A DNA stretch of 64,000 bases from an uncultured Eubacteriales bacterium. Its GTDB lineage: Bacteria; Bacillota; Clostridia; Saccharofermentanales; UBA5734. Below the pieces are notes generated by a model. That model had not been told where the DNA came from. It did not search any database and saw only the letters and a program-made list of their open reading frames with translations. The stretch is taken from contig CAILLO010000008.1 of the NCBI GenBank assembly GCA_903835065.1, positions 1-64,000 on the forward strand. The letters are read 5' to 3'. Positions 5,690-62,213 of this stretch are shown here, in pieces; positions within the stretch are counted from its first letter, which is position 1, and each line of letters starts with the position of its first letter. The position numbers and the translations under genes were made by a program.

Positions 5690-6900
5690 TCGTCGTGGAA
5701 CGCACGCCGAAGGGCGGGCCGGCGCGCAGGCCGGTCCTCGCCATGTACGGCGCGGGCAACATCGGACGCGGCTTCATCGGCATGGTGTTCGCCGACGCCG
5801 GCTACGAGGTGGTGTTCGTCGACGTGATGCCCGACGTGGTCGCGGCGCTCAACCGCGAGCACCGGTACCCGGTCGCCGTCGTGAGCGACGCCGCGAGCGA
5901 GGACCGCTGGATCGAGGGCGTGCGGGCGGTCGACGGCCGCGACGCCGAGGCCGTGGCGGAGCTGATCGCCACCTGCGACGTCGCCGCGACCGCCGTCGGC
6001 GTGAACGTTCTGCCGCGGATCGCACCGATGCTCGCGAAGGGGATCGCCCGGCGCATGGCACTGGAGCCCCGTCGCCCGCTCGATATCGTGATCTGCGAGA
6101 ACCTGATCGACGCGAACCTGCGCCTGGCCGAATGGATCTCGGAATTCCTGCCCGCCGGCCTGCGTCCGCGCCTCGCAGACGACGTGGGCTTCGTCGAGGC
6201 GTCGATCGGCCGGATGGTCCCGGTCATGACCGAGGAGATGAAGGCGGGCAACCCCCTCCGCGTCTTCGTCGAGCCCTACGACGAACTGCCGGTCGACGGC
6301 GCCGCCTTCCGCGGTCCGGTCCCGCCCGTCCCCAACCTGCGGCCGTTCACGCCCTTCGAGTTCTACATCCGCCGCAAGCTCTTCGTGCACAACCTGGGCC
6401 ACGCGACGACCGCCTACCTCGGCTGGCTGCGCGGGTGCGAGCTGATTTCGGACACGGTTCGCGTCCCGGAGATCGAGTCCGCCGCGCGCGCCGCCATGGG
6501 CGAATCCAGCCGCGCCCTGTCCGCGGAGTTCGGCGTGGCGCCCGAGGTGCTCGCCGCGCACGTCGACGACCTGCTGTTCCGCTTCCACAACCGGCGCCTC
6601 GGCGACACGGTCGCGCGCGTCGGCCGCGACCCGCTGCGCAAGCTCTCGCCGGAGGACCGGCTGGTCGGCGCGGCCCGCCTGTGCCTGAAGCACGGCATCG
6701 AGCCCGTCGCGATCTGCTGCTCGATCGCCGCGGCGCTCCGGTTCGACGACCGGGACGACCCCGCGGCCATGGCGATGCAGGCCGAACTGCGCGAGAAGGG
6801 CGCCGGCGCCTTCCTGCGGGAGCGGTGCGGACTCGGCGCGAAGCCGGGCGACGACGACGGGCGCAGGATCCTCGAGCGGGTGCTCGCGGAGAAACGTTAG
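5686..6900 (+). CDS. Mannitol-1-phosphate 5-dehydrogenase-like protein
   Basis: NAD-dependent polyol-phosphate dehydrogenase, expected to interconvert mannitol-1-phosphate and fructose-6-phosphate or a related pair. The N-terminal dinucleotide fold carries GAGNIGRGFIG, characteristic of MtlD. The C-terminal catalytic part has KLFVHNLGHATTAYLGW, matching the MtlD active-site helix. At 404 residues it is slightly longer than typical MtlD. The GTG at 5686 overlaps the kinase stop; an ATG at 5743 is the alternative start and begins right at the nucleotide-binding strand. No PTS permease is next to it, so the phosphorylated substrate may come from the adjacent kinase. The exact substrate is uncertain. 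Confidence 0.8.
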   Translation: MIVVERTPKGGPARRPVLAMYGAGNIGRGFIGMVFADAGYEVVFVDVMPDVVAALNREHRYPVAVVSDAASEDRWIEGVRAVDGRDAEAVAELIATCDVAATAVGVNVLPRIAPMLAKGIARRMALEPRRPLDIVICENLIDANLRLAEWISEFLPAGLRPRLADDVGFVEASIGRMVPVMTEEMKAGNPLRVFVEPYDELPVDGAAFRGPVPPVPNLRPFTPFEFYIRRKLFVHNLGHATTAYLGWLRGCELISDTVRVPEIESAARAAMGESSRALSAEFGVAPEVLAAHVDDLLFRFHNRRLGDTVARVGRDPLRKLSPEDRLVGAARLCLKHGIEPVAICCSIAAALRFDDRDDPAAMAMQAELREKGAGAFLRERCGLGAKPGDDDGRRILERVLAEKR

Positions 6901-8348
6901 GGATTGAGGTTCTGTAAGTGCTTCGGATCTGGATGCAGCGAATCCGTTGCGCACCGACCCAGCAATAGGAAGAGAAACGGAGCCGTATAGGTCAGCGAGT
7001 TGCCGAAGAATGCGGACGCCAGATAGGTCAATGCGGCACAGGCGGCAGCAACGGCTTCGATCGACATGCCTTCGAACGCTTTCGGAACTCGACGGAAGCG
7101 CCATGACGACCAGGGAAGAACCGGATGGATCGACGCATAGAGAAATGCCAACCAGGCCAGTAGGCCTGGAATTCCCAATGTGACAAGATATTCAAGATAC
7201 TCGTTGTGAAGACGGTCGCTGAATTGGATTCCGTCTCGTTGCAGGAAAAAACCGGTCGTGTCGGGACCATTTCCGATCCAGGGACTCTGCAGGAAGTACT
7301 TGATGCCGTCGACCCAGAGAAGCCAGCGAGAACCACCGGCTTCCAATGCTTGCGTGGAACCCGGATTGGTGATGATTGCGGACACGTCGGTTCCGATCAG
7401 GACGATCTTGTATGTGGACAGAGCGCCATCGACGACATAGAGCAGAATGAAGACCGAGATGGCGGTGAACAGCGGGAGGAACGACCGTAGAGACCTTTTC
7501 CCCGGCAGGAGGAAACCGAGAAGGGTCAATCCGCCGAGAAGAGCAAGGGAAGATCCGCGCGTCTGTGCATAGACGAGTGTCGTGAAAAGGAGCAGAGAGA
7601 GTGCAGGAGCCGCCAAGGAACGGATCAGGGATCCGAAGGACCGCTTCGATGATTCAGAAGTCGTTTCGGGCCGGATCCATAGTGCCGAGGACAGAACGGC
7701 GGTCATGCAGAGGAAATAGGCGAAGTGGTTCTGATTGATGAAGAAGGAAATGGCCGAACCACTCAAGGACCAGGCGAACGGCCGATAGCCGGAGCGTTCC
7801 GCAAGTCCGAGAAGACAGGATATGGCGGCCGTGATGAACCAGAAGGAACGGATCAGGGGCCACTTTCTCTTCTGCGTCAGGGAAATCGCAGCTGTGAACA
7901 GACCCGCATAGGCCAGGTATTGGATCCAGCCCTCGTGTCTCCACCAATTACCGAAGAATGCTGTCGCTGGCCATTGGGAGAATATCGAACAGACAAGACT
8001 CCAGAGCAGGAAGATCACGAGGGTCAGGATCGGAAGAGGAAGCCAGGGGAATCCTGATCCCAATCGACCTTTCAATAAGGACTGTCCTGCTGGGTGAATG
8101 AGACCTAGAAGGATCAGGACAGTCCAGCATAGATAACCTGCCATCGTGACGATCGTGGATTTCCATGACAATGCTTCGAGTGCTTCGCTTCCGAAAAGAA
8201 AAGTATAGAGCGGAGAGAGCACGAAGAAACCGACGCTGCCGAGAAGACAGACCTGTAGAGCCACCCGGAGTGTGGCTTTCGATTTTTCATACTGCACCGG
8301 ATCGACAGGAGTCATCCGGAATGACTTGGTTATCCACTTGAAAGTCAT
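6897..8348 (-). CDS. O-antigen ligase/polymerase-family membrane protein
   Basis: A 483-residue polytopic protein with about 11-12 hydrophobic segments and a large loop near residues 330-400 (IGNGPDTTGFF, FSDRLHNEYLEYLVTLGIPG). The His-Asn-Glu-Tyr segment in that loop is the hallmark of the Wzy_C/WaaL family, which transfers or polymerises lipid-linked glycans outside the membrane. The gene is visibly less GC-rich than its neighbours, suggesting acquisition. It stands alone with no glycosyltransferases nearby. Its stop overlaps the dehydrogenase stop by 3 bases in convergent orientation. The start is uncertain: ATG 8348 lacks a good Shine-Dalgarno, and an in-frame ATG at 8378 is possible. Confidence 0.78.
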   Translation of the reverse strand: MTFKWITKSFRMTPVDPVQYEKSKATLRVALQVCLLGSVGFFVLSPLYTFLFGSEALEALSWKSTIVTMAGYLCWTVLILLGLIHPAGQSLLKGRLGSGFPWLPLPILTLVIFLLWSLVCSIFSQWPATAFFGNWWRHEGWIQYLAYAGLFTAAISLTQKRKWPLIRSFWFITAAISCLLGLAERSGYRPFAWSLSGSAISFFINQNHFAYFLCMTAVLSSALWIRPETTSESSKRSFGSLIRSLAAPALSLLLFTTLVYAQTRGSSLALLGGLTLLGFLLPGKRSLRSFLPLFTAISVFILLYVVDGALSTYKIVLIGTDVSAIITNPGSTQALEAGGSRWLLWVDGIKYFLQSPWIGNGPDTTGFFLQRDGIQFSDRLHNEYLEYLVTLGIPGLLAWLAFLYASIHPVLPWSSWRFRRVPKAFEGMSIEAVAAACAALTYLASAFFGNSLTYTAPFLFLLLGRCATDSLHPDPKHLQNLNP

Positions 8349-8398: not shown

Positions 8399-9355
8399 CT
8401 ACCCCGCCAGAGCCGCGGCGGCGGCGTCGAGCGTCTTCGCGTCCTCGACGTTGACGACGAGGGCGCCGGGCAGCGTCTTGCGCACCAGGCCGCACAGGAC
8501 CTTGCCGGGCCCGCACTCGACGAACGCCGTCGCGCCGGAGGCCGCCATGGCCTCGAGCTCGGCCCGGAAACGGACGGGCCCCGTCATGTGGCGCGAGAGA
8601 TAGGCGGGCACGTCGGCGATGTCGTCGACGGCGGCGCCGGTGGCGTTCGAATAGAGGACGGCGCCGGGCAGCGGCGCGCCGAACGCGAGCCCGCGGGCGA
8701 AGGCCTCGAGGCCGAGCGCGGCGGTCGACATGAGGGGTGTGTGGAACGCGCCGTTGACGCCGAGCTTCACGACGCGGCCGGCGCCGGCGGCCTTCAGGCG
8801 CTCGGCGGCGAGGGCGGCGGACTCCTCGCGGCCCGCGACCACGACCTGGCCCGGGCAGTTGTAGTTGACGGCCGCGACGAACGCGTCGGGTCCCGCTGCG
8901 GAGATCTCGGCGCAGACCCGCTCGACCGCCGCGTCGTCGAGGCCCAGGACCGCGTACATCGCGCCGGGCTTGCAGTCGCACTGCTCCTGCATGAGCCGCG
9001 CGCGCTCGGAGACGAGGCGCACCGCGTCAGGCAGCGTCACGAGGCCGGCGGCCGCGAGCGCCGCGTACTCGCCGAGCGAGAAGCCCGCGAAGGCGCCGGC
9101 GGTGAGGCCGGTGCGCTCCTTCAGGGCGGCGAGGGCGGCGAGGGACAGCGTCAGCATCGCGGGCTGGACGTACAGGGTCTGCGCGAGGCGCGCCGACTCC
9201 TCTTCGGGGGTGGAGGCGCCGAGCGACGCGACGTCCCAGCCGAGGACGGAGGACGCCTCCTCGTAGACGCGGCGCGCCGCCGGGCTGGCTTCGCACAGGC
9301 TCCTGCCCATGCCGGCGTACTGGGAGCCCTGACCGGAAAACAGGATCGCGACCAT
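8399..9355 (-). CDS. fabD: Malonyl-CoA:acyl carrier protein transacylase FabD
   Basis: Loads malonyl groups from CoA onto ACP for type II fatty acid synthesis. The 318-residue length is typical. The nucleophile elbow GFSLGE places Ser93, and His205 lies in GAFHTPLM; the N-terminus has the FSGQGSQ motif and the C-terminus ECGPGKVL. ATG 9353-9355 follows GGAGGG. It is divergent from fabH, whereas in related fab clusters fabD usually sits inside the operon, so a local inversion or relocation is likely. Any FabT-type repressor bound at 9428-9440 would lie in its upstream region too. Confidence 0.95.
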   Translation of the reverse strand: MVAILFSGQGSQYAGMGRSLCEASPAARRVYEEASSVLGWDVASLGASTPEEESARLAQTLYVQPAMLTLSLAALAALKERTGLTAGAFAGFSLGEYAALAAAGLVTLPDAVRLVSERARLMQEQCDCKPGAMYAVLGLDDAAVERVCAEISAAGPDAFVAAVNYNCPGQVVVAGREESAALAAERLKAAGAGRVVKLGVNGAFHTPLMSTAALGLEAFARGLAFGAPLPGAVLYSNATGAAVDDIADVPAYLSRHMTGPVRFRAELEAMAASGATAFVECGPGKVLCGLVRKTLPGALVVNVEDAKTLDAAAAALAG

Positions 9356-9387
9356 CGGTTTCCCTCCTCGCGGGACCCCCCTCCGGC

Positions 9388-9417
9388 TTGACAAGGGAGA
9401 GGGGTGGGTTGTATCCT
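9388..9417 (+). promoter_or_regulatory. Predicted promoter of the fabH operon
   Basis: Consensus -35 TTGACA (9388-9393), an 18-base spacer and -10 TATCCT (9412-9417). Transcription would start near 9424, just before the palindrome at 9428-9440. Confidence 0.65.
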
Positions 9418-9427
9418 TTGCTTGTCC

Positions 9428-9440
9428 TTTGATTATCAAA
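9428..9440. promoter_or_regulatory. FabT-type operator (fatty acid synthesis)
   Basis: A perfect inverted repeat TTTGAT-T-ATCAAA. It matches the core of the FabT (MarR-family) recognition palindrome that controls fatty-acid-synthesis clusters in streptococci. It sits a few bases after the predicted start site of the fabH operon, where a bound repressor would block transcription. No fabT gene is in the window, so the regulator is inferred. Confidence 0.65.
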
Positions 9441-9476
9441 ATAAACGAAATCACGGGCGAGGACAAGGAGAAGGAA

Positions 9477-10493
9477 TTGATCGAAGCGGGCATCATCGGG
9501 ACGGGAAGCTACCTGCCGGACGTCGTCGTCACGAACCAGGACATGTCCGGAATCGTGGAGACCTCCGACGAGTGGATCACCTCCCGCACGGGAATCTCCG
9601 AGCGCCGTCTCTCGTCGGGCGAACCGACCTGGTTCATGGGGCTCGTCGCCGCCCGGAAGGCGATTGCGGCCGCCGGCGTCGAGCCGATCGACATCGACCT
9701 GATCCTCGCGACGACCGTGACGCCCGACTACTATTTCCCGTCGCTCTCCTGCATTATACAGGCCGAAATCGGGGCGGACAACGCGATCGCCTTCGACGTC
9801 AACGCCGCCTGCAGCGGATTCGTGTTCGCCATGGACGTCGCCGGCCGGTACCTCATGACGGGCGCCGCGAAGAACGTGCTGATCGTCAGCGCCGAATGTC
9901 TGTCCAAGCTCACGGACTACACCGACCGCGCGACCTGCGTCCTCTTCGGGGACGGGGCGGGCGCCGTCGTCGTCTCCACGGGCGGCGGCCGGATCCTCGG
10001 CTCCCACCTGCGGTCCGAGGGTAAGAGCGGCGGTTCGCTCGTCAGCCGCGCCCTGCCGATCCAGCACCCGTTCCTCGACGGGACCGGGCGCAACCCCGGC
10101 GGCTGGGGCTCCGCGTTCCCCGAACGCTTCCCCGATGCCGTCGACAAGTTCATCCGCATGGACGGCACGGAGGTCTACAAGTTCGCGGTGCGCGCCGTGA
10201 CCGACTCGATCCAGGTCGTGGCGAAGGAAGCGGGCGTCGAGGTGGCCCGCATCGACCACTTCGTCCTGCACCAGGCCAACTTCCGGATCCTCGAAGCCGT
10301 CTCGCGCCGCCTCGGCGTCCCGATGGACCGCTTCGCCGTGCACATCGGCGAGATGGGCAACGCCTCTTCGGCCAGTATCCCGATCTGCCTCGACAACATG
10401 ATCCAGGACGGCCGGCTCAAGCCGGGCGACTCGGTCATGATGTCCGGATTCGGCGCCGGCCTCACCTACGGTGCCATGCTGGTGACGTTCTAG
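9477..10493 (+). CDS. fabH: Beta-ketoacyl-ACP synthase III FabH
   Basis: Condenses acetyl-CoA (or a branched primer) with malonyl-ACP to start fatty acid synthesis. The catalytic triad is visible: Cys112 in AACSGF, His265 in LHQANFR and Asn295 in GEMGNASSAS. The chosen start is the TTG at 9477, preceded by AAGGAGAAGG and giving MIEAGIIGTGSYLP, the normal FabH N-terminus; the product is 338 residues. An upstream in-frame TTG at 9429 lies within the operator and has no ribosome site. First gene of an operon running to accDA at 16882. Confidence 0.93.
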   Translation: MIEAGIIGTGSYLPDVVVTNQDMSGIVETSDEWITSRTGISERRLSSGEPTWFMGLVAARKAIAAAGVEPIDIDLILATTVTPDYYFPSLSCIIQAEIGADNAIAFDVNAACSGFVFAMDVAGRYLMTGAAKNVLIVSAECLSKLTDYTDRATCVLFGDGAGAVVVSTGGGRILGSHLRSEGKSGGSLVSRALPIQHPFLDGTGRNPGGWGSAFPERFPDAVDKFIRMDGTEVYKFAVRAVTDSIQVVAKEAGVEVARIDHFVLHQANFRILEAVSRRLGVPMDRFAVHIGEMGNASSASIPICLDNMIQDGRLKPGDSVMMSGFGAGLTYGAMLVTF

Positions 10494-10521: not shown

Positions 10522-11298
10522 ATGGCCGCTCTCGAAGGCATGTCCGCGTCCCACGCCCCCGCCGTCCGCCCGGTCGCGATCGTGACCGGCGGCTCCCGCG
10601 GCATCGGCGCCGCCGTCGCCCGTCGCCTCGCCCGGGACGGTTTCGACGTCGCGCTCTCGTACCGCAGCGGCCAGGAAGCCGCCGAGGCCGTGGCCGAGGA
10701 GTGCCGCGCCGCCGGGGCGAAGGCCCTCGCGTTCCGCGCCGACGCCGGCTCGTCCGAGGACTGCGCCACGTTCGTCGCCGCCGTGCTCGCGCAGTTCGGA
10801 CGCGTCGACGCACTGGTCAACAACGCGGGGATCACGCGCGACGGCCTCGCGATGCGCATGAGCGACGACGCGTTCGACCAGGTCGTGTCGGTCAACCTCA
10901 AGGGCGCGTTCGTCATGTGCCGCCAGGTGCTGCCCGCGATGATGAAGGCCCGCGCGGGGCGCATCGTGAACGTCACGTCGGTCGCCGGCGTGTTCGGCAA
11001 CGCGGGGCAGGCCAACTACTCCGCCGCCAAGGCCGGCCTGATCGGCCTCACCCAGTCCCTCGCCAAGGAGGTCGGCTCCCGCGGCATCACCGTCAATGCC
11101 GTCGCCCCCGGCTTCGTCGAGACCGACATGACCGTCGGCCTGAACGACAAGCTCCGCGAGGCGGCGCTGACGCGGATCGCCCTCGGCCGGTTCGGCCAGC
11201 CGGACGACATCGCCGGCGCCATCTCTTTCCTTGTGTCGAAAGATGCCGCATACTTGACGGGACAGACGATCGTCGTGTCCGGTGGATTGTCCCTCTGA
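10522..11298 (+). CDS. fabG: 3-oxoacyl-ACP reductase FabG
   Basis: NADPH-dependent reduction of beta-ketoacyl-ACP in the elongation cycle. A 258-residue SDR protein with a cofactor glycine motif (VTGGSRGIG), NNAG at about residue 99, catalytic Ser in NVTSVAG and YSAAK. A short N-terminal extension of about 14 residues precedes the Rossmann fold, and an ATG at codon 7 could be the true start, but AAAGGAG fits the first ATG well. No acpP gene lies between fabH and fabG, unlike many related clusters. Confidence 0.93.
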   Translation: MAALEGMSASHAPAVRPVAIVTGGSRGIGAAVARRLARDGFDVALSYRSGQEAAEAVAEECRAAGAKALAFRADAGSSEDCATFVAAVLAQFGRVDALVNNAGITRDGLAMRMSDDAFDQVVSVNLKGAFVMCRQVLPAMMKARAGRIVNVTSVAGVFGNAGQANYSAAKAGLIGLTQSLAKEVGSRGITVNAVAPGFVETDMTVGLNDKLREAALTRIALGRFGQPDDIAGAISFLVSKDAAYLTGQTIVVSGGLSL

Positions 11299-11347: not shown

Positions 11348-12610
11348 ATGAACACGCAAGAGCCCGTCCGCGGAAGAAGAGTGGTGATCACCGGAATGGG
11401 GGTCGTCTCCCCGGTCGGCAGCACCGTCGAATCGTTCTGGAACAGCCTGAAGACCGGCCGGCACGGCTTCGGCGTCATCGACGCGTTCGACGTCACGCCC
11501 TACAAGGTCAAGCTCGGCGGCCAGGTCCGCGACTTCGACCCGCTGGCCTTCCTCGACCGCAAGGAAGCGCGCCGGATGGACCGCTTCGTCCAGTTCGCCA
11601 TGGCCGCCGCATCGATGGCGATGGCCGACAGCGGCCTCGACGTCCAGGCCGTGGGCCCCTTCCGCGTCGGCACCATCATCGGCAGCGGCATCGGCGGCCT
11701 GCTGACCCTGCACGACGAGTACGACAAGATCTTCAAGATCGGCAACGCGACGCGCGTGTCGCCGCTCTTCATCCCGATGTTCATCCCGAACATGGCCGCC
11801 GGCATGGTGTCGATGGCCCACGGAACCCAGGGCGCCAACTTCAGCGTCGCCTCCGCCTGCGCCACGGGCGCGCACTCCGTCGGCGAGGCCTTCCGCTCGA
11901 TCAAGTACGGGCACCTCGACGCATGCATCGCCGGCGGCACCGAGGCCCCGATCACCCCGATCGCCTACGGCGGCTTCACCAACATGACCGCCCTGTCGCA
12001 GAACCCGGACCCCGACACGGTCTGCCGCCCGTTCGACCTCGAGCGCGACGGCTTCGTGATCGCCGAGGGCGCGGGGATCCTGGTCCTCGAGAGCCTCGAG
12101 CTCGCGCTCGCCCGCGGTGCGAAGATCTACGCCGAGATCTCGGGCTACGGCGCCACTGCCGACGCCTACCACATCACGAGCCCCGACCCCGAGGGCGCGG
12201 GCGCGGCGATGTCGATGCAGCTGGCGATGGCCGAGGCCGGCGTCCGCCCGGACCAGATCGACTACATCAACGCGCACGGCACGAGCACGCCGCTCAACGA
12301 CAAGTACGAGACGGCCGCGATCAAGCGCGCGTTCGGCGACTCCGCGAAGACGGTCGCCGTCAGCTCCACCAAGTCGATGACCGGGCACCTGCTCGGCGCG
12401 GCCGGCGCCGTCGAGGCGATGGTCTGCGCGCTCGCGCTGCAGGACGGAATCCTGCCTCCCACGATCGGCTACCACACGCCCGACCCGGACTGCGACCTCG
12501 ACTACGTCCCCAACACGGCCCGCAAGGCCGACGCGAAGATCGCACTGAGCAACTCGCTGGGATTCGGCGGGCACAACGCCACGCTGTGCGTCCGGCGATA
12601 CGAGGGGTGA
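11348..12610 (+). CDS. fabF: Beta-ketoacyl-ACP synthase II FabF
   Basis: Elongating condensing enzyme of type II fatty acid synthesis. The 420-residue thiolase fold has Cys171 in SASACATG context (VASACATG), one active-site His in NAHGTSTPLND, and a second in MTGHLLGAAG. The ATG at 11348 follows AAGGAGGA; the frame extends upstream but without a site. The stop is four bases before accB, indicating tight coupling. Confidence 0.95.
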   Translation: MNTQEPVRGRRVVITGMGVVSPVGSTVESFWNSLKTGRHGFGVIDAFDVTPYKVKLGGQVRDFDPLAFLDRKEARRMDRFVQFAMAAASMAMADSGLDVQAVGPFRVGTIIGSGIGGLLTLHDEYDKIFKIGNATRVSPLFIPMFIPNMAAGMVSMAHGTQGANFSVASACATGAHSVGEAFRSIKYGHLDACIAGGTEAPITPIAYGGFTNMTALSQNPDPDTVCRPFDLERDGFVIAEGAGILVLESLELALARGAKIYAEISGYGATADAYHITSPDPEGAGAAMSMQLAMAEAGVRPDQIDYINAHGTSTPLNDKYETAAIKRAFGDSAKTVAVSSTKSMTGHLLGAAGAVEAMVCALALQDGILPPTIGYHTPDPDCDLDYVPNTARKADAKIALSNSLGFGGHNATLCVRRYEG

Positions 12611-12614
12611 CATC

Positions 12615-13190
12615 ATGACGGACAAGGACAAGGACCTGGACGCGTCCCGGGGCAAGGGGACCCGCTTCGACAGCCTCGACATCGTCCGCGTCGCCGAGCT
12701 GATGAAGCAGATGCGCGAATACGGCATGACCCGCTTGGACCTCGAGGTCGAGGGCGTGAAACTCACGCTCGAGCGCGGCCGCCCGCCCGTCGCCTCCGTC
12801 GAGGGGGTGTCCGGCGATGCCTGGCCCGCAGTCGAACCTGACCCCTCTTCGCGGGCCTCCGCTCCCGCGCCCGCTCCCGCTCCCGCTCCCGCCGCGCCCG
12901 CCCACGCCCCCACGGCGCCGGCCGCCCCCGCCGCCCCCGCCGCCGAGGCGCCGGTCGGCCACCTCGTGAAGTCGCCGATCGTCGGCATCTTCTACTCCTC
13001 CCCGTCCCCCGACGCCGCCCCGTTCGTCGCGCCCGGCACGGTCGTCAAACCCGGGCAGACGCTCTGCATCATCGAAGCCATGAAGCTCATGAACGAAGTC
13101 AACAGCCCGGTCGCCGGCACGGTCGCCGAGGTGCTCGTCAAGAACGGGGACCGGGTGGAGTTCGGACAGCCGATGCTGCGCATCGTCTAG
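12615..13190 (+). CDS. accB: Biotin carboxyl carrier protein of acetyl-CoA carboxylase
   Basis: Carries carboxybiotin between biotin carboxylase and carboxyltransferase. The product has 191 residues: an N-terminal helical segment (about 20-55), a long Ala/Pro hinge (about 80-113), and a C-terminal biotinyl domain with EAMKLMN, in which Lys157 is the biotinylation site. The usual thumb region is present (SPSPDAAPFV). The hinge is repetitive at DNA level (12860-12945) and could be a hotspot for length change. It starts four bases after the fabF stop. Confidence 0.95.
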   Translation: MTDKDKDLDASRGKGTRFDSLDIVRVAELMKQMREYGMTRLDLEVEGVKLTLERGRPPVASVEGVSGDAWPAVEPDPSSRASAPAPAPAPAPAAPAHAPTAPAAPAAPAAEAPVGHLVKSPIVGIFYSSPSPDAAPFVAPGTVVKPGQTLCIIEAMKLMNEVNSPVAGTVAEVLVKNGDRVEFGQPMLRIV

Positions 13191-13213: not shown

Positions 13214-13639
13214 ATGATCATGGACCGCACCCAGATCGAAGCCGTCATCCCCCACCGCGACCCGTTCGTCATGATCGACGCCGTCCAGGCGCTCGAGCCC
13301 GGCCGAACCATCCTCGCCTCCTACTACGTCTCGCCGGACCACGACTACTTCAAGGGCCACTTTCCGGGCAACCCGGTCATGCCGGGCGTCCTGATCGTCG
13401 AATCGATCGCCCAGGCCGGCGCGGTCTGCATGCTCTCGACGCCCGAGTTCGCCGGCCGCACCGCCTACTTCGCCGGCATCGACAAGGTCCGGTTCAAGCG
13501 CAAGGTCGTGCCGGGCGACACGCTGCGGCTCGAGGTCTCGATCGGGCGCATGCGCGGCCGCATCGGCTTCGGGACGGGCAAGGCCTACGTCGGCGACGAG
13601 CTCGCCGTCGCGGCCGAGATCATGTTCGCCATCGGCTGA
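13214..13639 (+). CDS. fabZ: 3-hydroxyacyl-ACP dehydratase FabZ
   Basis: Dehydrates beta-hydroxyacyl-ACP to trans-2-enoyl-ACP. A 141-residue single hot-dog domain with the active-site segment [15 protein letters not shown] (catalytic His and Glu) and the early IPHRDPF motif. An AGAAGGAG site lies upstream of the ATG; a second ATG two codons later is possible. It lies between accB and accC, as in streptococcal clusters. The enoyl reductase that would act next is not in the window. Confidence 0.95.
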
Positions 13640-13664: not shown

Positions 13665-15020
<1,356 letters not shown>

Positions 15021-15040: not shown

Positions 15041-16882
15041 ATGATCAAGGAGAACCTCCGGCAGGTCCGCGAGCGGGCCGCCATGGACCACCCCGAGCCG
15101 TCGGCCGAGGACGCGTACGTCTACCGCCGCCCGATTCCCGACGACCTCTGGGTCAAGTGCCCCGAGTGCGGCGGCGTCATGTTCTGCGAGGAGTTCGAGA
15201 AGGAATACAGCGTCTGCACGAAGTGCAACCACCACTTCCGCCTCGACGCCCGCGAGCGCATCGACATGGTCGTCGACCAGGACACGTTCGTCGAGATGGA
15301 CAAGAACATGCGCAGCGTCAACCCGCTCGGCTTCCCCGGCTACGGGCAGAAAATCGAGAAGCTCATGGAGGAGACGGGGCTTTCCGAGGCCATCGTGACG
15401 GGCGAGGCGAGGATCGGCGGGTTCGCCTGCATGGTCGGCGCGATGGACAGCCGCTTCCTGATGGGCTCGATGGGCTCCGTCGTCGGCGAGAAGATCACGC
15501 GCATGTTCGAGTCCGCGACCGACCGCCGGCTGCCGGTGGTGCTGTTCTCCGCATCGGGCGGCGCCCGCATGCAGGAGGGCATCGTCTCGCTGATGCAGAT
15601 GGCCAAGACCTCCGGTGCCGTCGCGCGCCACGACCGGGCCGGGCTACTCTACATCTCGGTCATGACCGACCCGACGACGGGCGGCGTCACGGCCAGCTTC
15701 GCGAGCCTCGGCGACGTCATCCTCTCCGAGCCCGGCACGCTGATCGGCTTCGCCGGCCGGCGGGTCATCGAGGGCACGATCGCCCAGAAGCTCCCCGAGG
15801 GCTTCCAGCGCGCGGAGTTCCTCCTCGAGCACGGCTTCCTCGACCGCATCGTCCAGCGCAGCCAGATGCGCCCGACGCTGATCCAGCTGCTCACCGCGCA
15901 CGTCAGCCCGGCCGCCAAGCGCTCGCGCCGACGCATCCGCGACTTCCGCGACGCCGCCGCCGAATACTCCGAGACGACCGTCGCCCGCGTGCGCGAGTTC
16001 TTCGCCGACGCCCGCCACATCGGCCTCTTCGGCGTCGACCACGACCACCCGCCGGAGGGCGCGGCCGGACCGGCCGTCGCGCCGCCGCGCAAGGCGTCGG
16101 AGCGGCTCGACCTGATCCGCCACAAGAACCGCCCCACGCTGCGCGACTACATCCCGCTGATCTTCGACGACTTCCTCGAACTGCATGGCGACCGCCTCTT
16201 CTCGGACGACCCTGCGCTGTGCGGCGGCATCGCGATGTTCCAGGGCGTGCCGGTGACCGTCGTCGGGCACGTCAAGGGCCGCAGCCTCGAGGAGAACAGC
16301 CGCACGAACTTCGGCATGCCGCACCCCGAGGGCTACCGCAAGGCCATGCGCCTCATGCGCCAGGCCGAGAAGTTCGGCCGGCCGGTGCTGTGCTTCGTCG
16401 ACACGTCGGGCGCCTACTGCGGCATCGGCGCGGAGGAGCGCGGCCAGGGCGAGGCGATCGCCCGCAACCTGTTCGAGATGATGGACCTGCGCACCCCGAT
16501 CGTCAGCATCGTGACGGGCGAGGGCGGAAGCGGCGGCGCGCTGGCCGTGGCCGTGTGCGACGAGCTCGCCATGCTGCGCAACGCGATCTACTCGGTCATC
16601 TCCCCGCGCGGGTTCTCGAGCATCCTGTGGAAGGACGGCACCCGCGAGAAGGAGGCCGCCGACCTGATGAAGATCACCGGCGAGGACCTCGTGGAGTTCG
16701 GCATCTGCGACGCGATCCTGCCCGAGCCGGACGAAGGCGCCCACGCCGATCCGCGCGCGACCGCGGCGGGCATCGTCGACTTCCTGTCGCGCACGCTGCC
16801 GAAGGTGTGCGGGCACCCGGTCGCGGACATGCTCGAGAAGCGGTACGAGAAGTACCGGAAGATCGGGATGTATCTGGAGTAG
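15041..16882 (+). CDS. accDA: Fused acetyl-CoA carboxylase carboxyltransferase (beta + alpha)
   Basis: Transfers the carboxyl group from carboxybiotin to acetyl-CoA, giving malonyl-CoA. One 613-residue chain contains the whole AccD part (about 1-300) followed by AccA (about 350-613). The beta part has a four-Cys zinc ribbon ([10 protein letters not shown], then CTKCNHH) and the [11 protein letters not shown] loop. The alpha part has [18 protein letters not shown] and [12 protein letters not shown] linker of roughly 40 residues (about 305-350) joins them. These subunits are usually separate; fused forms are known in some lineages. The frame is continuous, so the fusion is real at sequence level. 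GGGAAAGGA lies 10-13 bases before the ATG, a rather long spacing. Confidence 0.93.
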
Positions 16883-61506: not shown

Positions 61507-61854
61507 CTACTTGCAGAACGGTTCGTCGAACAGCCGGTCGCCGAATTCCGCGACAAGCTTCGCGTCGTCCCTATAACAAGTCGCGTCGTCCCGGATCCCG
61601 ATCACGACGACGTTCAGCACTCCATGCTTCCGAACCAGGCAGTAGACGACGCGAACACCGATCGAGGAGAATTTGATTTTCAAGAACCCCGAGAGATTCC
61701 CGGAACCTCGAGAACCCAAGGGTTCACCAAGTCCGAGAGGTCGTGGCTCGGGGTTCTGCAGCACCTTCCGGATTCCCTTGAGGATCCGCGGTGCCTGGTC
61801 GGGATGCTTCTTAAGATAATCAAAGGCAGACGCAGAATACCGTGCCTCCCACAT
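61507..61854 (-). CDS. RelE/ParE-superfamily toxin
   Basis: The toxin of a type II pair, likely an mRNA interferase acting on the ribosome or a related toxin. The 115-residue product has MWEARYSASAFDYLKKHP, the basic core GSGNLSGFLKIKF and VRVVYCLVRKHGVL, then VVVIGIRDDATCYRDDAK, a RelE pattern. The ATG at 61854 overlaps the antitoxin stop (TGATG), so it is translated after the antitoxin. It has the usual antitoxin-first order. Confidence 0.88.
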   Translation of the reverse strand: MWEARYSASAFDYLKKHPDQAPRILKGIRKVLQNPEPRPLGLGEPLGSRGSGNLSGFLKIKFSSIGVRVVYCLVRKHGVLNVVVIGIRDDATCYRDDAKLVAEFGDRLFDEPFCK

Positions 61855-62213
61855 CAACCGAGGTCCTCGTCGGGAGCCGCCTCGATATCCTCTTCCGTCA
61901 ATCCGAGTTGCATCATCAATTCCTTCTGGCCGATATAGCCGTCATCCGGCGTATTGCGGACCACCTCTTCCGAGGCCCTATAAAGGGCCACATCCTCGGC
62001 AAGGACAAGGAGCGCATCAAGCCGCTCGGCCTTCTCGATCAGTTCCGAATAGCGAATGGACTCGACCATGAAGGCGGTCGGGCGGTTTCCGCGCAGGACC
62101 ATGACGTCCTGATGGCCCTTGGACACGATGTCGAGGATTTCGGAGGACCGCGTCCTGAGTTCGGTCGCGGAAATGGTGGTCGGAATGACCGGACGGATAT
62201 TCCTTGGCGGCAT
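61854..62213 (-). CDS. Phd/YefM-family antitoxin
   Basis: Neutralises the downstream RelE-like toxin and autorepresses the operon. In the 119-residue protein the N-terminal DNA-binding part reads TTISATELRTRSSEILDIV and VMVLRGNRPTAFMVES, characteristic of Phd/YefM; the acidic C-terminal tail (about 85-119) is the toxin-wrapping segment. AAAGGAG precedes the ATG at 62211-62213. Transcribed from 62281-62309, with repeats between the promoter and the start. Confidence 0.9.
   Translation of the reverse strand: MPPRNIRPVIPTTISATELRTRSSEILDIVSKGHQDVMVLRGNRPTAFMVESIRYSELIEKAERLDALLVLAEDVALYRASEEVVRNTPDDGYIGQKELMMQLGLTEEDIEAAPDEDLG

Follow-up and report, generated by a model that had tools for sequence, protein, structure and literature searches.

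The palindrome TTTGATTATCAAA at positions 9428-9440 of the window analysed here, a stretch of 64,000 nucleotides from an uncultured Eubacteriales bacterium (contig CAILLO010000008.1 of assembly GCA_903835065.1), is very probably the operator through which a FabT-like MarR repressor, encoded on contig C47 of the same genome, controls the fabH operon. We place the probability of this reading, which is drawn from sequence comparison, at about 0.9. The genome (G000) comprises 2.51 Mb in 82 contigs, is 98.5% complete and 3.85% contaminated, and the window has a guanine plus cytosine (GC) content of 68%. FabT has been studied almost solely in Lactobacillales, in which it is linked to the operon under its control. 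The repressor is thus already known, and the fabH operator in Clostridia belongs to that known kind. What is new, as far as the open literature that we searched shows, is an arrangement in which fabT is uncoupled from the fab operon and adjoins an auxiliary acyl carrier protein (ACP) gene, together with a predicted regulon that includes fabV and an acyl-CoA dehydrogenase gene.

The palindrome is spaced 10 bp 3′ of the −10 element of the fabH promoter. A consensus promoter scan over 9250-9600 identified TTGACA-18-TATCCT as the sole promoter (mean of 0.0 in shuffled sequences). Its −35 element, TTGACA, lies at 9388-9393 of the plus strand and recurs in relatives, and its −10 element, TATCCT, lies at 9412-9417 after an 18-bp spacer; the relatives have TATCAT or TATGCT at 17-18 bp. 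With a transcription start 7 bp past the −10 element, the putative FabT-type operator would span approximately +5 to +17. Its 3′ edge is about 36 bp ahead of the likely fabH start codon, TTG at 9477, and the operator would therefore sit in the 5′ leader. The gene downstream is fabH (TIGR00747, 342 bits; cut-off 292). In the window, the palindrome with up to two mismatches has three matches, where 0.15 are expected, and the only perfect one is that at fabH. In the literature, FabT sites are described as palindromes of the form ANTTTGACTGTNAAATT (PMC8406281). The first-pass annotation of this DNA had described a FabT-type core directly after the TTGACA-18-TATCCT promoter. The coordinates and the promoter scan bear out the position, and the core agrees with the published palindromes and with the presence of a FabT homologue in the genome.

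That homologue is the one FabT-like MarR protein that the genome encodes (C47, 14582-15046). Its best match among solved structures is pneumococcal FabT (6JBX, E = 3.7e-30; next match 7.4e-9), and it scores 151.5 bits against the NCBIfam FabT model, with the next model at 41.9 bits. Three further MarR proteins from this genome reach only 32-34 bits against the FabT model. Among characterised families, the C47 protein is nearest to FabT. The first-pass annotation had proposed looking for a MarR-family gene near acpP or fabK, and had tied its reading to the existence of a FabT homologue; the C47 protein matches FabT, and its gene adjoins an acp gene.

When the whole genome was searched, five sites with at most one mismatch were found, as opposed to none for a reversed-pattern control, and 16 with at most two mismatches, as opposed to two; the fabH operator is the sole perfect copy. 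Two of the five best sites precede fabK (TTTGAATATCAAA, on C18) and an acyl-CoA dehydrogenase gene (on C66, 4 bp past TATAAT). Weaker sites are found at fabV in two near-identical regions (C5, TTTGCATATCAAA; C21, TTTGCAAATCAAA) and at acs2, the second ligase gene of C47, which encodes an acyl-CoA synthetase next to plsC (C47:19061, after TAGAAT, and at the same position in G003 and G007). Palindromes of the TTTGA-N3-TCAAA type are present at fab promoters. A second C5 site, at 5720, was taken as a chance match, as it falls within the start of the fabV coding sequence. We also observed that the divergent fabV/flavodoxin regions on C5 (L138) and C21 (L142) could have arisen by duplication or stem from a second strain in the bin, given the 3.85% contamination; both keep the operator-like site.

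In this genome and its FabT-bearing relatives, the operator with up to two mismatches is present upstream of 22 of 23 fabH loci, the exception being in G033. The palindrome, whose absence from close relatives had been named at first pass as grounds for abandoning the idea, has been kept at fabH throughout the family and in part of the order. It follows the promoter at most of the 23 loci and precedes one in G007. Among regions of the fabD-fabH type, the −10 element and the operator are separated by exactly 10 bp in 9 of 16 and by 8 bp in three more. Sites within two mismatches also occur at fabK in seven of eight cases. Of 29 genomes, 15 have such a site at fabT, in most of them immediately past a −10-like element. 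In G032, a genome without FabT, both fabH copies are without the site. Loci L135-L136 of that genome, which is of the same order, carry a tandem run of several fabH-like genes, and the operator is absent there. True loss of fabH from G001, G004, G005 and G021 was considered and not upheld, as the contigs end inside the fab operon.

Of 291 genomes sampled from the class Clostridia, 49 have a match to the NCBIfam FabT model. The first-pass annotation had held that FabT beyond Lactobacillales would extend the regulon. The presence of FabT-like genes outside that order is borne out, and the novelty of the range is not: because FabT-like genes are common in Clostridia, finding one here is unsurprising. 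Across the class, a site with at most two mismatches lies upstream of fabH in 10 of the 15 FabT-bearing genomes and in none of eight without FabT (Fisher p = 0.0027), and with at most one mismatch in 6 of 15 and none of eight, respectively (Fisher p = 0.058). Three Clostridia with FabT (L187, L189 and L195) have altered best sites upstream of fabH, TTAGATAATCTAA, TTAGATAGACAAA and TTAGACTATCTAA, perhaps a co-evolved operator variant. We found no experimental study of FabT in Clostridia in the open-access literature that was searched.

Several observations weigh against the assignment. The C47 protein falls below the curated NCBIfam FabT cut-off of 200 bits. The FabT of Lactococcus lactis, which is well established, likewise falls below it; the cut-off is therefore narrower than the functional family, and we term the C47 protein FabT-like. 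The putative autoregulatory site at fabT, clear in many relatives, is weak in this genome (CTTGCATATCAAA, 3 mismatches, p = 0.02); the core of CTTGCATATCAAA is also present at fabT of G005. Two of the five best sites in the genome precede genes with no obvious lipid role, namely an M28 peptidase gene (C16) and an Smr-domain gene (C35). In the nearest relative, G001, the contig ends before fabH, so that conservation cannot be read there. Lastly, the upstream regions compared across the class are on average richer in AT where FabT is present (35% versus 41% GC), which favours chance matches at two mismatches and gives weight to per-region shuffles. In these, the six loci with at most one mismatch had p values of 0.03 or less, and the four two-mismatch loci had p values of 0.08 to 0.27.

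One could envision that the same operator also represses the divergent fabD (8399-9355, minus strand, ATG at about 9355), which would be an addition to control of fabH and not an alternative to it. The fabD/fabH divergence is kept in nearly all loci of families f1 and f4, with the operator between the two genes, and the operator half-site TTGATA looks like a −35 box on the other strand. The consensus scan of 9250-9600, however, found no fabD promoter on the opposite strand, there being no acceptable −10 box at the right spacing in the window. The first-pass proposal that one operator serves both directions is thus correct as to position and unsupported as to fabD control, since no reverse promoter was found; because the divergent arrangement is conserved, we retain joint control as a doubtful addition. 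Another explanation is that the palindrome is the operator of a different regulator, for example another MarR protein or FapR, and that FabT acts elsewhere. Similar palindromes can be common to MarR proteins, of which the genome has several, and the peptidase and Smr-domain sites would fit such a regulator. We think that this is improbable, however, for the site tracks FabT, preceding fabT itself in the relatives counted above and being absent at fabH of the sampled genomes without FabT, and the other MarR genes tested look OhrR-like or unrelated, a comparison that covers MarR genes only, no search for FapR having been made. Origin as a chance inverted repeat rich in AT, or as an RNA hairpin of the leader, which the position within the presumed transcribed fabH leader would allow, is very improbable in view of the perfect match despite the high GC content, the reversed-pattern control, the near-fixed promoter spacing across genera while flanks diverge, the same word ahead of other lipid genes, and the absence of the site loss that such an origin predicts for most relatives.

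How might the FabT-like protein act at fabH? FabT binds as a dimer, and its binding is enhanced by acyl-ACP (PMC9083066, PMC13046290, PMC6509188). When acyl chains are plentiful, a dimer that presumably carries long-chain acyl-ACP would occupy the operator, immediately 3′ of the point where fabH transcription begins, and would block fabH-fabG-fabF-accB-fabZ-accC-accDA at initiation or at promoter clearance. Likely further targets of this repressor are fabK, fabV, the acyl-CoA dehydrogenase gene, the acyl-CoA synthetase gene next to plsC and, weakly, its own gene.

The operon and the separate location of fabT can be described from the sequence as follows. The predicted operon, all on the plus strand with fabD divergent, consists of fabH (9477-10493, with the presumed TTG start), fabG (10522-11298, read from its translation), fabF (11348-12610), accB (12615-13190), fabZ (13214-13639), accC (13665-15020, with orthologues in relatives) and accD-accA as one open frame for the carboxyltransferase (15041-16882). 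The fabT gene does not head this operon, unlike in Lactobacillales; it lies on C47 and the fab operon on C8, which is a feature of the operon and not of the protein. The order on C47 is fabT, an ACP gene with a DSL motif, an AMP-forming long-chain acyl ligase gene, a lipid kinase gene, divergent plsC and the second ligase gene. A canonical-looking acpP is located elsewhere, adjoining rnc (C1), and the ACP next to fabT is therefore regarded as auxiliary. The fabT-acp pairing is retained across family f1 wherever the contig permits, and the first ligase gene is missing between acp and the lipid kinase gene in G008, G010, G014, G016, G019 and G021. We propose that this conserved cluster headed by fabT, with the auxiliary acp, usually an acyl-CoA synthetase gene, a lipid kinase gene and plsC, is a new element.

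The location of fabT outside the fab operon, beside genes for an auxiliary ACP, a lipid kinase and, in this genome and most relatives, a long-chain acyl ligase, suggests that the signal may be the auxiliary ACP once it is loaded with fatty acid of exogenous or recycled origin. In its full form, which we put forward only tentatively, the hypothesis is that FabT, the neighbouring ACP and, where present, the ligase make up a self-contained fatty acid sensor: the dedicated ACP would receive free fatty acid from the ligase, and in this acylated form it, rather than the acyl-ACP used in synthesis, would serve as corepressor and turn off the fab operon via the fabH operator.

The systems of Streptococcus pneumoniae, Enterococcus faecalis and L. 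lactis likewise have a MarR repressor of fab genes, a TTTGA-N3-TCAAA palindrome and sites at the fabK and fabT promoters. They differ from the present one in its separate fabT-acp-(acs)-lipid kinase cluster and in fabV and acyl-CoA dehydrogenase as likely targets. The FabT-like protein of Caloramator australicus is about 50% identical and has the same palindrome, but the genes follow the streptococcal order fabT-fabH-acp-fabK-fabD-fabG-fabF, with two sites in tandem at a distance of 16 bp. Like this genome, E. faecalis has an ACP in addition to the product of the canonical acpP, an apparent likeness of role; this auxiliary protein, AcpB, has been linked to FabT regulation in Enterococcus (PMC6509188). 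In many Lactobacillales acpB adjoins plsX, whereas here the extra ACP gene is directly 3′ of fabT and is followed in most genomes by the AMP-forming acyl ligase gene. A conserved clostridial fabT uncoupled from the fab operon, with an auxiliary ACP gene and in many cases an acyl ligase gene for neighbours, would illustrate how repressor and ligand supply were rewired, and lends itself to testing whether the signal is carried by a dedicated ACP.

Many relatives carry more than one operator at fabH. The fabH loci of family f1 have another copy, weaker than the first and 16 bp downstream of it, with a mean of 7.9 of 10 core positions over 11 loci, and in two f2 loci the distance is 15 bp. Pairs 16 bp apart are also found in Caloramator, another Clostridiales metagenome-assembled genome and Streptococcus ferus loci. 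No recognisable second copy is present at fabH in the window or in G003. The tandem operators of the relatives, missing here, offer a test of cooperative binding.

Elsewhere in the window, an O-antigen-ligase-like membrane protein is encoded on the minus strand at approximately 6900-8300, between fabD and a mannitol-dehydrogenase-like gene, and its composition was treated by the gene caller as unlike that of its neighbours. The two remaining window matches to the palindrome, near 61.7-61.8 kb, were taken as chance in view of their location within or next to what looks like a toxin-antitoxin pair. This small gene pair (61507-62213, minus strand) resembles a RelE-type toxin and its antitoxin, and its third-position GC is below that of its neighbours.
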